From contig NC_005071.1 in the NCBI RefSeq assembly GCF_000011485.1, positions 496,001 through 560,000 on the forward strand: a stretch of DNA of 64,000 bases, read 5' to 3'. The notes beneath the pieces are model-generated. The model saw nothing but the letters and a program-made list of their open reading frames with translations, made no database searches and was not told the DNA's origin. Shown here piece after piece: positions 53,972 through 59,564 of this stretch. This DNA is from Prochlorococcus marinus str. MIT 9313 (lineage in GTDB: Bacteria; Cyanobacteriota; Cyanobacteriia; PCC-6307; Cyanobiaceae). The stretch's first letter is position 1. Each line of letters opens with the position of its first letter. The position numbers and the translations under genes were made by a program.

Positions 53972-54694
53972 CGTTGACTTAAAATGCTCTCTAATTATAG
54001 CTAGAATAAGTCGTTTGAGGCACTAAAAACTTAAACATCAAACCAATCCCAATGTCTAGATAGGCCTCTTACATGTGTGGTTTTACAGTCGCTATGTCTT
54101 CGCTTCTCTGTCTCCTAATCACTTCATTGATAGAGCTTCCCTTGTCTCCAAAAAACGTTATCAATTGGCTTTTACTGCATTCTATTCATTAACTGTAATC
54201 AAGCAGGCTTGCGATCTCAGTGTCAACCATATTTGAAATCACTCTGCCAGATTATTGCCATAAACAGGCAAAGTTTATGGCATGCACGCCTGGAATGCTA
54301 AGCCGCTTGACAACTTAGGCACGATTTAAGTCATTGCATACACCAGTAACATCAATGCCTTTACGAGATTCCATTTATATTTCCTTTTGATATGTTCTTC
54401 TTCCATCCAAGCTACGCCCGGGATTAGCCACTCTTTCAATGGCCAGGATTTGCATCATCTATACATTTGCAGTGCATGACGTTATTGCGCCTCAGCGACT
54501 GATTCCTTCTGCATCTGCCACAAATTTCATCATGTGCAAGTGAGCAGGTGATAACTTGACGGCTCCAATGGACTAAACAGCACCCCGGATGGTGTCGAAA
54601 TTTACACAAGCATCAATCAGCAATACAGATTCCTCGCAACAGCACTATTGCTATTGAGAATCGCTTGCAAAAGGCACCGTTAAGCGTATAGGTT
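53972..54694. other. region upstream of the first Crp/Fnr-type gene
   Basis: About 720 bases without a gene. It holds the inverted repeat at 54256-54282 and a half-site resembling a Fur box (TGAGAAT near 54655). Confidence 0.45.
54256..54282. repeat. 10-base perfect inverted repeat
   Basis: TGCCATAAAC and GTTTATGGCA around the seven-base AGGCAAA. No T run follows, so an operator or processed hairpin fits better than a terminator. Confidence 0.5.
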
Positions 54695-54730: not shown

Positions 54731-55327
54731 ATGAGCTTCCGATTCCTGCCAGATGATCCAGTCCCAACAGTGCGGATGCCAACAGGGCAATCCATCCTTA
54801 TCGATCCTGCCGCTCGTTCAGGCGGCGCTTGTATCGAAGTCGTTGAGGGTATCGCCCGCGTTTACTGCCCATGCGAAGAAACTGAAGGAATGACTCTCGC
54901 TTTTCTTCAGGAAGGCGATCAACTACGCACCGACCGCTTGTGCAGTGAAGGTGTCTGTGTTGAAGCACTTACACCATTATGTTTTCGCAGCGATGCTGAA
55001 ATCCGTGATGGGCATGACTTTGATGCGGTGAACGAATGGACCCTGCAGCTGCTTCGCATTCGCCATTTAGGTAATGCAGAACAGCGTCTCCAGGCATTGC
55101 TCGCCCTGCTTGTTAACCGCTTAGGGCGACGCTGTGGCGACTGGTGTGATCTCCCCTTCCGACTCACCCATGAGCGAATTGGTGAACTCATCGGATCTAC
55201 GCGGGTGACCTCCACGCGACTGATCTCCAGGCTAAGGACCGCTGATCTTTTAAACGTTCCCAGCGGAGAACCCATCTTGCGCTTGGCCCCAGCCTTAATT
55301 GAATCAGCACCTCTTGCCGCCTCATAG
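54731..55327 (+). CDS. Crp/Fnr-family regulator, cysteine-rich
   Basis: 198 residues. A cyclic-nucleotide-binding-like beta domain (about residues 10-95) is followed by a helix-turn-helix (RLTHERIGELIGSTRVTSTRLISRL, in parts, about 144-168). It is paralogous to the gene at 57801-58583: both share GQSILI, GIAR, LAF and the recognition-helix region. It carries eight cysteines at 34, 46, 48, 71, 76, 84, 135 and 139, including CPC and two CxxxC/CxxxxC pairs, more than usual. A metal or Fe-S cluster is possible but not proven. The next gene starts ten bases after its stop. Confidence 0.85.
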   Translation: MSFRFLPDDPVPTVRMPTGQSILIDPAARSGGACIEVVEGIARVYCPCEETEGMTLAFLQEGDQLRTDRLCSEGVCVEALTPLCFRSDAEIRDGHDFDAVNEWTLQLLRIRHLGNAEQRLQALLALLVNRLGRRCGDWCDLPFRLTHERIGELIGSTRVTSTRLISRLRTADLLNVPSGEPILRLAPALIESAPLAAS

Positions 55328-55337
55328 CTCTGAGTGA

Positions 55338-55661
55338 ATGAAAGACCTAGTTACGACATCAGACAGCGTTATCGCCAGTCTCTGTAGAGAGGTTGATGGG
55401 ATCCGTCATCGCTGTAGCTCATTGCTAGAGGCTATTGCTAAATGTAATGACGACAACCTATCTTGCCGCCTGAAAAAAGAATTTCAGCAGCTCAGTAATC
55501 GACGCAGTCGATTACTCGAAACAGCCAAAGCAATACAATTTAAAAGTGTCGACGATAAACTCTCTATTGAATTTCTAATTGAGATCAGTAGCAGACCACT
55601 TGACATGAGAACTTGTTGGCCTCAAGAAAAAAAATCTGATTTTATTAGCCATAACTCATAG
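55338..55661 (+). CDS. hypothetical coiled-coil protein
   Basis: 107 residues, largely helical, with four cysteines and a heptad-like central part (LLEAIAKCNDDNLSCRLKKEFQQLSNRRSRLLETAKA, in parts). No family recognised. It starts ten bases after the Crp/Fnr-type gene and is probably co-transcribed with it, so a link to the regulator's function is plausible. Confidence 0.6.
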   Translation: MKDLVTTSDSVIASLCREVDGIRHRCSSLLEAIAKCNDDNLSCRLKKEFQQLSNRRSRLLETAKAIQFKSVDDKLSIEFLIEISSRPLDMRTCWPQEKKSDFISHNS

Positions 55662-55717: not shown

Positions 55718-56296
55718 CTAGGCCAGCTTTGCAGGTGAATGCTTTCCATCGCTCAATTCGCCGTCAATAATTAACATTGCAGAGGGTTGATTCTGGGCAA
55801 AACGTACTCGACCCAAGAGGTGAGCAAACTCATTTTCAGAGTCGACTTGATTATCGACTAGTGGATCAAGGAACACAGTCGTGCGCATATCAGAAGCTCG
55901 CTCAGCCATTGCATAAAGCTGATGCAGTGAGGTTGTTACGTCTGCCTCCATCTGGAATGAGGCAGCCATGATTTCATCTGTAGAGATCCATTCCTGACGG
56001 GGTGAAGGTACATCCTGCAGAACAACAGCTTGTCCACGAGCAATCAGGTAATCTGCAAAATGGGCGGCATGTTCCTGTTCTTGAATAGCTTCTTGCTTGA
56101 AGTAATGGGAAAAGCCGCGCAATTCGCGCTCAGCAAACCAAATCGCAATAGCAAAGTAAGCAGCGCTAGCATTTCTCTCCATGGTTAGATGCTGATGGAG
56201 AGCCTCAACCAGAGAAGCTTCCATTGACTGAGCGATTGCACGTCCTGCAGGACCAGTGGTAAGGGCTACAGCTTTAGTACTGGTAGGCAATGCCAT
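55718..56296 (-). CDS. ferritin (second copy)
   Basis: 192 residues from ATG 56296 (MALPTSTKA). The four-helix fold is clear: LTMERNASAAYFAIAIWF has the first ferroxidase Glu and Tyr, and EAIQEQEHAAHFADYL has the Glu-x-x-His pair. It differs from the first ferritin in a 40-residue N-terminal extension rich in Ala/Thr/Gly and in its tail. Divergent from the small Cys-rich gene, with the Fur-like site between them. Confidence 0.92.
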   Translation of the reverse strand: MALPTSTKAVALTTGPAGRAIAQSMEASLVEALHQHLTMERNASAAYFAIAIWFAERELRGFSHYFKQEAIQEQEHAAHFADYLIARGQAVVLQDVPSPRQEWISTDEIMAASFQMEADVTTSLHQLYAMAERASDMRTTVFLDPLVDNQVDSENEFAHLLGRVRFAQNQPSAMLIIDGELSDGKHSPAKLA

Positions 56297-56431
56297 GATT
56301 TGTCTTGTCGAGATTGCACAGAGTGGCGAGGATGGATTAGCAACCAGGCAAATGTGCATAGAGTGATGTGACGAATGCTACAAGCCCTTTTACATCTTGA
56401 AAAGGTCTCTTCAGGTGCGATTTGGACCCCA

Positions 56432-56454
56432 TATAATGAGAATCAGTCTCAGTT
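56432..56454 (+). promoter_or_regulatory. Fur-like box overlapping a -10 element
   Basis: TATAAT at 56432-56437 runs straight into TGAGAATCAGTCTCA (56437-56451), a perfect five-base dyad (TGAGA/TCTCA) spaced as in Fur boxes. Repressor bound here would cover the -10. It sits 25 bases before the start of the small Cys-rich gene and 140 bases before the start of ferritin 2 on the other strand. Confidence 0.7.
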
Positions 56455-56475
56455 GCGGAGTTACCGCAGGTCTTT

Positions 56476-56613
56476 ATGGCCAAGGCCTTGGGGAATGACT
56501 TTGTGGACAGTCGTCTGCGACGTCTTGAGCCCGTTCAAAACAAGAAAAAAACCTGCAAAAAGCGGAAGTGCTCGAAGTGGAAAGGTGGCAAATGTGTTTG
56601 CAGCCGGGGCTGA
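56476..56613 (+). CDS. 45-residue basic four-cysteine protein, probably Fur-controlled
   Basis: ATG 56476 begins MAKALGNDFVDSRLRRLEP. The rest is Lys-rich with Cys27, Cys32, Cys40 and Cys42 (TCKKRKC, GGKCVC). The Fur-like box immediately upstream and the location between ferritin and futC-like genes strongly suggest iron regulation. The cysteines could bind a metal, and the Lys-rich stretch nucleic acid; neither is shown. The same DNA is also open in a longer overlapping frame (56375-56662) with no protein-like content. Confidence 0.75.
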   Translation: MAKALGNDFVDSRLRRLEPVQNKKKTCKKRKCSKWKGGKCVCSRG

Positions 56614-56742: not shown

Positions 56743-57801
56743 TCAACATAGTGGGCATGGAATCGCTCCGGGGAAAAGAAGGCCTTTTTGTCCCGCGCGG
56801 AAGGCGACGAAGCAGCGCTCGCCTGTCTTGACAGGGCGTTCAAGTGGTTGACGCACACGCAACGTGTGATTTCCAAGCTCCACACGCAACAACCAGTGAC
56901 TACCAAGAAACTCGCGACCTTGAATCAGAGCCTCGCCTCTGGGATCCTGCTGAATCTGAAGAGCCTGATCATCGACCATTAACTCAGTTGCCTTAGCAGC
57001 GTTCGGTTCCGTGGGTTTTGAGAGAGGACCAATCGGCGTCAGCCAATGTTCGCCACCCATGTTGAGAGGAAGCAGGTTTCCTTGGAGCACAAAACGACCA
57101 ACAAAAGGTGTGGCTGGTTTTTGCACCAGATCAGAGGGTGATGCGCACTGATGAAGCTCACCATTGCGCAGGACCGCAACCCGATCGCAGATTGCCAGGG
57201 CTTCTTGAGGATCATGTGTCACAAGCAGACCACTGGCACCACATGTTTGAAGAACACCTGCAAGCTCGCTGCGCAAACGCAGACGTACCTCAACATCAAG
57301 GTTGGAAAAGGGTTCATCAAGAAGTACGAGTGATGGCCCTGGGGCCAATGCCCTTGCCAGTGCCAAGCGTTGGCGTTGGCCTCCAGAAAGCTGATGCGGA
57401 TAACGGTGACGAAGATCCGCTAGGCCAAGCATCTCAAGCAGCCATTCTGCTCGGCTGGTGTCTTGGCCGCGGCGTAAACCAAAACAGGTATTGCGCCAGG
57501 CATCGAGATGGGGGAAAAGAGCATAATCCTGAAACACCATGCCTATGCTGCGGCGCTCGGGTGGCAGCATTCCCCGTGAGCTTGCGACCTCGTGATCATC
57601 GATGCAGATTGTCCCTCGCACAGGCTGTTCAAATCCAGCAATCAATCGCAGCAAGGTTGTTTTGCCACAACCGGAAGGTCCCAACAAACCAACGAGCTCA
57701 CCTCTCTGGAGGTTCATATTGATGGATTGCAGTGTCCAACCTTCTGCTGATCCATCACCGTAATGATACCAGAGGCCCTTGATTTGCAAGTGGTTAGTCA
57801 T
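56743..57801 (-). CDS. futC: ABC transporter ATP-binding protein of the iron(III) (FutC/FbpC) type
   Basis: 352 residues from ATG 57801. Walker A GPSGCGKTT (about 43-51), signature LSGGQRQRLALARAL, Walker B LVLLDEPFSNLD, and the switch His VTHD. The C-terminal 110 residues form the regulatory TOBE-type domain. The helical subdomain YALFPHLDAWRN and the overall length fit FutC/FbpC/PotA-like importers. Iron as substrate is inferred from the neighbours. Its ATG overlaps the stop of the upstream Crp/Fnr-type gene (TGATG), so the two are made from one message. Permease and binding protein are not in the window. Confidence 0.85.
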   Translation of the reverse strand: MTNHLQIKGLWYHYGDGSAEGWTLQSINMNLQRGELVGLLGPSGCGKTTLLRLIAGFEQPVRGTICIDDHEVASSRGMLPPERRSIGMVFQDYALFPHLDAWRNTCFGLRRGQDTSRAEWLLEMLGLADLRHRYPHQLSGGQRQRLALARALAPGPSLVLLDEPFSNLDVEVRLRLRSELAGVLQTCGASGLLVTHDPQEALAICDRVAVLRNGELHQCASPSDLVQKPATPFVGRFVLQGNLLPLNMGGEHWLTPIGPLSKPTEPNAAKATELMVDDQALQIQQDPRGEALIQGREFLGSHWLLRVELGNHTLRVRQPLERPVKTGERCFVAFRAGQKGLLFPGAIPCPLC

Positions 57802-58583
57802 CAAAATCGTATATCCATAGCTGGGGTGGATTCGATAAGTCGTGCCGAGAGCAGAAAAGTCCCGCCAGGTTCAATTAGCTGAAGATCATTCTTGTTCCGA
57901 AACAAGGTGATCTGACGAGTAACAGTGGAGCGCGTGGCCCCAATTAGTTCGGCCATGCGTGCATGGCCAAGGGGAAAGGGCAATTCATAACCTTCACTTC
58001 TACGGATGCCAAAGCGACCAATCAGAAGTTTTAAAAGAGCAACTAACCTTGCTTCGGCTCCGACTGGATGTCTGACAAGATGAAAATCAAATAGCCAATC
58101 CCATAGGAGATCTTGATCTTTCGGGCAGTTGTCTGCGTAATGAAGGCCAATTGAACTATTCGTGAGTGCCTCAAGTAAAAAGTTGCTGCAGTCGGGTAAC
58201 CGAATCCAACTAGATTCAGAATCACCACAAAAAGCCAAAGTGATATCAGGAAAATGATCTCCGAAGGAGCCTGAGATCCTGGCAATGCCCTGCTGAAAAA
58301 ACAGCCGCACGTAGCGAGATTGATCCGTCTGAGAGGACAGCAGGATGCTCTGCCCTACTGTGAGTTGAAGTGATTCCAGCGATTCCAGTTGACTACTGAC
58401 TGTTATCGGACAAGACGCATTGTGTAATGGTTTACGGAGGGAAGGGAACTCTTCCTCGCCATAACTACTGGTAGCAGAATCAAAGGTGATGTTTGTGGCA
58501 GGTTTCCAAGATCCATTGCTGTCAGATAGATCCCAGCATCTACTAGAGATTTTTGAGTCAACAGCGACCCCAATAGATGACAA
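57801..58583 (-). CDS. Crp/Fnr-family regulator, second copy
   Basis: 260 residues from a TTG at 58583; the true start is uncertain. The C-terminal 190 residues match the gene at 54731-55327 (VGQSILLSS, GIARISG, ITLAF, a helix-turn-helix in GHARMAELIGATRSTVTRQI, in parts). The N-terminal 65 residues are Ser-rich with no counterpart. It lacks the CPC and CxxxC clusters of its paralogue. The gene ends in the futC start codon, so the regulator probably controls or senses the transporter's function. Confidence 0.78.
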   Translation of the reverse strand: MSSIGVAVDSKISSRCWDLSDSNGSWKPATNITFDSATSSYGEEEFPSLRKPLHNASCPITVSSQLESLESLQLTVGQSILLSSQTDQSRYVRLFFQQGIARISGSFGDHFPDITLAFCGDSESSWIRLPDCSNFLLEALTNSSIGLHYADNCPKDQDLLWDWLFDFHLVRHPVGAEARLVALLKLLIGRFGIRRSEGYELPFPLGHARMAELIGATRSTVTRQITLFRNKNDLQLIEPGGTFLLSARLIESTPAMDIRF

Positions 58584-58610: not shown

Positions 58611-59564
58611 CCCATCAAGCACAGATCAATGCTTGCTTGGGATGTGACATTTATTACATCTAGAGGTAGCTATTGATTCGGGTCGCTTGATTGTGGGGGG
58701 GAGTAGGTAAAAAGCAGAAAAATGAGCGTGTTGGTTTTTTGGTCAAGAGTCAGGCTTTGGATCCAACAAAAGGCCAGCCATCCTGTTCATGGGGCTGCTT
58801 GGATCCAAGTTAAGCTGTATAGTTTCAAATTTTATTCATGAAAAATAACTTATAGCGAGCAGAATCCATGACCTGCACAACGATTTTATCTCCATAGAAG
58901 CAATTAAAGATGGCTAGAATGGCAGGTGTCTATGTCAAGGAATTATCTGTTTATAATGATCGACTTGGCTAAGCCTATTGTAAGGCTAGCTAGAAAACTG
59001 TCGGCGCCAAGAGAAGTCAATAACTGCTATGAATACTATATTCGCAGTCAGATTCCTGGTGTAGGACTTGCCTGTTATTAGCACTTTAAATATGGATTGA
59101 AGTATACATTCATGCAGGCAGAGCATCGTGTCTTCTGGGTTTACGATGATGAATATAATGAATAACAGTATTCGCTTTTGTATCTATCAAGTATACGGCG
59201 TTGGCCTGATAGAGCTGTGCTAAATAGACCTGCAAATTTAGTTTCTGAAAAATGATGAAATGGTTGTTCCTGTAGATTTATATGGCCCTAGGGGGATTTC
59301 TTAATGCAAGAGTCTTGCTATTCTAAATGTAATCATCATTGACAATGAATGTAATGATTATTGATGAGAAAATAGAAGATTTAGGCATCCCATTTAGCGA
59401 CCCATTCATTTTTTATTTCTTAGTTGGCGTTAGTCTTGAAGTTGAAATATCTTGCTCGATTTACTGTAGTCCAACAATTAGTGAATGCCTTAGCTGATTG
59501 AGCGGCTAAGCATCGAGATGAATGGCATAGTTTCCCAAAGACTTCTTAAAAGGCAATTGCGTCC
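58611..59564. other. long intergenic region with twin palindromes
   Basis: About 950 AT-rich bases. It includes two copies of the 10-base palindrome TTGGATCCAA (58757-58766, 58799-58808). A 39-codon frame starting at 58722 spans both copies; I do not call it a gene. Confidence 0.45.
58757..58808. repeat. twin palindromes TTGGATCCAA, 42 bases apart
   Basis: Copies at 58757-58766 and 58799-58808, each fully self-complementary; centres 42 bases apart, four helical turns. They lie upstream of the Crp/Fnr-type gene and could be a paired operator. Confidence 0.45.

Follow-up and report, generated by a model that had tools for sequence, protein, structure and literature searches.

A conserved four-cysteine small protein co-inherited with ferritin in picocyanobacteria: a candidate ferritin partner under iron shortage

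What might be the role of a 45-residue protein whose gene lies between those of a ferritin and a FutC-like ABC transporter ATPase? The question is raised by a 64,000-nucleotide stretch of the Prochlorococcus marinus MIT 9313 genome (hereafter the window), in which an initial annotation, made from the DNA letters and their open reading frames, had pointed out a short frame for a Lys/Cys-rich protein with four cysteines. The frame and its translation confirm this description: the small gene occupies positions 56476..56613 of the forward strand, with its ATG at 56476 and its stop codon at 56611-56613, and it is present as a single copy in the genome (2,410,873 bases). The 45-residue product, MAKALGNDFVDSRLRRLEPVQNKKKTCKKRKCSKWKGGKCVCSRG, contains 10 lysines, 5 arginines, 3 acidic residues and 4 cysteines, has a pI of 10.4 and carries its core residues at K23-K25, C27, C32, W35-K36-G37-G38, C40 and C42. 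The surroundings are likewise as first described, with a ferritin domain on one side and the FutC-like ATPase on the other. The divergent ferritin (55718..56296, reverse strand; 192 aa, or 213 aa from an alternative ATG at 56359) matches PF00210 (E 2.5e-30); its best matches in the PDB are 7pf9, 6gka and 5ouw (E about 1e-60), and its alignment with SynFtn of Synechococcus CC9311 (E 1.3e-60 over residues 12-185) places it in the SynFtn class. Domain matches identify the FutC-like ATPase (56743..57804, reverse strand) and two Crp-family regulators, of which the first, crp 1 (54731..55327, forward strand), is PtrA-like and the second, crp 2 (57801..58583, reverse strand), lies beyond futC. A gene for a 107-aa protein without an assigned family (55338..55661, forward strand) keeps its place between those two genes, crp 1 and the ferritin, both in Prochlorococcus and in part of Synechococcus, and may form part of the same module. 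The match to crp 1 contains one in-frame TAA in most high-light Prochlorococcus genomes, and the Crp 1 protein may therefore be shortened or broken in them.

The small gene is a real gene under protein-level selection, a conclusion that is practically certain. Its 61 distinct copies all share the core K[KR]KxCxxxKCSxWKGGxCxC, with the spacing Lys3-X-Cys-X4-Cys-X7-Cys-X-Cys, in which the four cysteines, the tryptophan, the serine, the two glycines and the other fixed lysines never vary. Across these copies the mean entropy of the three codon positions is 0.38, 0.34 and 1.25, so that the third varies about three times as much as the others. A frame not conserved in orthologues would have refuted the initial annotation; the frame is kept. 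The N-terminus often reads MAxxIG, whilst the middle part of the protein is variable. An AlphaFold model of the protein is of low confidence (pLDDT 59) and suggests a short beta-hairpin across KWKGGKCV.

A protein search recovered the small gene in 217 of 300 genomes of the family, and a profile built from 26 members recovered it in 249 of 299 genomes of the order. Copies are found in high-light and low-light Prochlorococcus, marine Synechococcus, Cyanobium and sponge symbionts (lineage assignments that are partly inferred), whereas beyond the order other cyanobacteria gave no more than weak, partial matches (E 0.01-0.1), and viral contigs yielded no copies at the sensitivity used. One genome carries two copies, and LLI-type genomes carry, elsewhere, a shortened copy of 28 aa that has no operator. 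Searches of Pfam, NCBIfam and the PDB returned no family, domain or structure match. The papers searched do not describe the protein, which may figure in expression studies as an unnamed small ORF, and a text search with the core sequence returned one paper, which was unrelated. The protein is thus without a name in the searched libraries and undescribed in the papers found.

The gene keeps company with iron genes in more than one arrangement. In Prochlorococcus the order is crp 1, the 107-aa protein, ferritin (divergent), the small gene, futC and crp 2. Several freshwater strains have the small gene behind crp and opposite futB, with futA close by, and marine Synechococcus have it flanked by an OprB-type porin and crp, again with futA close by. 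Ferritin directly adjoins the small gene at 36 of 69 loci, some duplicates being counted among them. The tie to ferritin goes further than position. When the same 299 genomes were searched for the small gene, ferritin and crp 1, small gene and ferritin were found together in 242 and were both missing from 44, whilst 7 had only the small gene and 6 only ferritin (13 discordant genomes; phi 0.845); for small gene and crp, phi was 0.41. Flavodoxin, another iron-stress gene, is missing from 7 of 20 genomes that carry the small gene. The link is not merely physical, because it survives distances of hundreds of kilobases to megabases between the two genes (in G072, G090, G139, G099 and others). The six genomes with ferritin and without the small gene include four from one genus. 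In one genome that lacks ferritin the small-gene copy carries an internal stop, as expected for a partner in decay. SynFtn-class ferritins are reported to occur almost solely in marine picocyanobacteria (PMC8743623), and the range of the small protein is close to theirs. A functional tie of the small protein to ferritin is very probable.

The control region would fit a gene that responds to iron. The small gene has a -10 element, TATAAT (56432..56437, forward strand), with no good -35 element, and a promoter scan found no full sigma-70 promoter for it. A putative Fur-family operator, the dyad TGAGAATCAGTCTCA (56437..56451, forward strand), overlaps the TATAAT by one base and spans the probable transcription start. 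The 2.41-Mb genome contains no second exact match to TGAGAATNNNTCTCA. Within the window this box alone matches with 0-1 mismatches, and allowing up to 2 mismatches gave 12 sites against about 9 expected by chance. In about 30 relatives a similar box directly follows an AT-rich, -10-like element, usually 21-27 nt before the ATG. Some lineages have the protein but lack the operator, among them several freshwater Cyanobium in which the gene follows crp. Boxes of the same family also stand before crp 1 in one genome and before the porin in another. A weak Fur-like sequence upstream of crp 1 in the window, TGAGAATCGCTTGCA (54655-54669), also precedes the small gene in freshwater relatives and may be a divergent Fur-type box. 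The operator as a common switch of all iron genes was considered and rejected, since in 20 genomes the regions upstream of futA and isiB showed no TGAGAAT-type box.

A second putative site, of the CRP/FNR type, lies at 56367..56382 (forward strand): TGTGACGAATGCTACA, its centre some 70 bp upstream of where transcription of the small gene probably starts. De novo motif discovery on futA promoters gave a CRP-type motif, TGTRACAAATGATACA, which at many loci occupies a near-fixed place about 182 nt before the first cysteine codon of the small gene. The three best TGTRACAAATGATACA sites in the MIT 9313 genome lie upstream of the small gene, of crp 2, where the motif search marks the palindromic site TGTGACATTTATTACA (58643-58658), and of urtA. 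The motif recurs upstream of futA (at nine loci), of the small gene and of crp 2, and this recurrence hints that picocyanobacteria have an iron regulon under a Crp-family protein. NtcA was considered as the owner of TGTGACGAATGCTACA, since the site resembles GTA-N8-TAC and the regions of urtA and glnB score too; another Crp-family protein is favoured because the inner bases are conserved and the spacing is fixed. The small gene is thus equipped with a Fur-family operator and a CRP-type site, both predicted. The CRP-type site, the strict four-cysteine core and the co-inheritance with ferritin all go beyond the initial annotation, whose proposal of an undescribed small iron-response protein is supported by the lack of a Pfam or NCBIfam family and of any mention in the papers found, by the iron neighbours in three lineages and by the operator over the promoter.

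Expression of the small gene is expected under iron shortage, because it lies under a Fur-family operator, and such expression combined with the tie to ferritin would point most simply to iron release, control of ferritin or receipt of iron. A gene that is kept and lost with ferritin, and that has an iron-type switch, may therefore encode a missing helper of iron release. Our tentative reading is that the small cytoplasmic protein serves ferritin under iron shortage by aiding the release or hand-over of iron. When iron is plentiful, a Fur-family repressor would block the small-gene promoter; when iron is low, repression would lift and a Crp-family activator, perhaps encoded by a neighbour, would aid in switching the gene on. 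The protein would bind ferritin through its basic surface, its four cysteines might bind iron or an Fe-S cluster, or else a structural zinc, and it would either aid the reduction of stored Fe3+ or pass released Fe2+ to its users. It would thus be, for a non-heme ferritin, the functional counterpart of Bfd, which acts on bacterioferritin and to which it is unrelated. The functions that the initial annotation had listed (metal buffer, chaperone or RNA-binding factor) are conjectures, and the ferritin link narrows the choice towards a ferritin partner.

Bfd is indeed the known system that the small protein most calls to mind. This bacterioferritin-associated ferredoxin is a small protein with four cysteines that attaches to bacterioferritin and drives the reductive release of iron (PMC4771812; PMC12363616), and it is down-regulated when Fur is active (PMC12363616). 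The resemblance lies in small size, four cysteines, Fur-type control and a genomic link, as the bfd gene is often paired with a ferritin-family gene and co-occurs with its ferritin, a kind of link that the small gene shares. The differences are as clear: Bfd has about 64-73 aa against about 45, there is no sequence relation, the small protein is very basic, and its proposed partner is a non-heme ferritin of the SynFtn class rather than bacterioferritin. A search for Fer2_BFD with the 26 members gave no match in Pfam at E up to 10, and there was none in NCBIfam. The cysteines of Bfd are arranged as C-X-C ... C-X2-C, an arrangement from which the C-X4-C-X7-C-X-C of the 61 copies departs. Bfd further has a [2Fe-2S] cluster and docks on the ferritin shell, features that are conjectural for the small protein. 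The mechanism is one that we infer, because the protein is not a Bfd by sequence or cysteine spacing and its AlphaFold model is weak, and the co-inheritance fits iron release, iron loading and control of ferritin synthesis equally well.

Control of ferritin synthesis is where a different reading comes in, in which the small protein is a basic RNA-binding protein like FbpB of Bacillus and, when iron is low, helps to shut off iron-rich or iron-storing proteins, including ferritin, by acting on their mRNAs. FbpB is a small, basic, Fur-regulated protein of 48 aa (PMC7430163). FbpA, FbpB and FbpC of Bacillus subtilis are, like the small protein, small, basic, Fur-controlled and made in low iron, and the 45 residues, the pI and the operator described here resemble FbpB in size, positive charge and type of control. 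Ferritin mRNA as a target would also yield the co-occurrence with ferritin. RNA binding is, however, unproven even for FbpB, and the invariant cysteines would be left unexplained: the three Fbp proteins have no known invariant Cys4 core, no ferritin link and no sequence relation that could be seen. They also work with the sRNA FsrA, whereas an Rfam search at this locus gave no match of note and no partner sRNA. This alternative is judged unlikely.

Somewhat less likely again is that the protein is a Cys4 metal buffer or chaperone, for iron or zinc, that makes no direct contact with ferritin. Four invariant cysteines with lysines around them, among iron-gene neighbours, would suit such a role, and the metallothioneins BmtA and SmtA are also small and contain cysteines; BmtA of WH8102 is controlled by the Fur-family protein Zur. 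Four cysteines with one C-X-C are nevertheless few for a metallothionein, the small protein is unmatched by the metallothionein profile and by Pfam, its neighbours are iron and not zinc genes, and a specific co-loss with ferritin is not what a pure buffer would lead one to expect.

That co-loss could also arise if the small gene and ferritin were independent accessory iron genes, discarded together where iron storage does not pay, and we rate this about as improbable as the metal buffer. In its favour, several lineages without either gene are represented by complete genomes of larger genera, crp 1 is also missing from some complete marine-type genomes, and crp and flavodoxin are only partial controls. 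The link persists, however, when the count is confined to crp-bearing genomes (both 236, small gene only 3, ferritin only 6, neither 26). It persists within genera too: in the eight genera with both states, 4 genomes are discordant as against at least 16 in all 200,000 shuffles, and, since the shuffles ignore kinship within a genus and the counts per genus were compiled manually from the output tables, the independent joint losses number at least several, with no exact figure fixed. Ferritin moreover adjoins the small gene repeatedly, in two arrangements and as differing ferritins: divergent neighbours have 40-97% identity to the window ferritin, convergent neighbours 33% or 46-48%, and SynFtn is among the best PDB matches of the 33% one.

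The operator itself could belong to Zur, in which case the small protein would be a zinc-shortage protein; we give this a low probability. The box is close to the Zur boxes, which in the MIT 9313 genome have the form TGGGAATCATTCTCA before a CobW-like gene and znuA (about 1047562 and 2329046) and in relatives the form TGAGAATGATTATCA, and a Cys4 protein would suit zinc. The right half of the box in most relatives is A(A/G)TCTCA, unlike the symmetric ATT(A/C)TCA of the Zur boxes, and the gene is flanked by iron genes. For WH8102 the annotated Zur regulon comprises only znu, bmtA and neighbours (PMC9337993), a catalogue in which an unannotated ORF could be missed. The promoter thus carries by its sequence a Fur-type operator that also fits the Zur type, and the preference for Fur rests on context because of that likeness. 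Of the Fur dyad that had been claimed for the -10, the box and its overlap with TATAAT stand; its assignment is less firm, and it is missing from some lineages.

Finally, a chance ORF or a non-coding RNA is next to impossible: the gene is short and a perfect small hairpin (TGCGG-AGTTA-CCGCA, 56453-56469) lies between operator and ATG, but the codon-position pattern and invariant residues, the Rfam result, folding no stronger than that of shuffles (z -0.9) and a hairpin that is kept in close relatives and absent from most others led to its rejection.

If the small protein does serve ferritin, its interest would reach beyond this locus. SynFtn is the best-studied ferritin of its class, with solved structures and a mapped entry route, and the portion of that work available here names no physiological release partner for it (PMC8743623); a review of 2016 stated that no prokaryotic iron chaperone had been reported as of then (PMC4771812). 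It is possible, if doubtful, that the small protein is the first case of a partner dedicated to a non-heme ferritin in bacteria: a Cys4 mini-protein, induced when iron is short, that would dock on the SynFtn class and either pass electrons in or take Fe2+ out, and possibly a prokaryotic iron chaperone. Picocyanobacteria carry out much of ocean photosynthesis and are often iron-limited, and the return of iron from ferritins is poorly understood; a small protein linked to ferritin offers a concrete candidate for the existing SynFtn assays.
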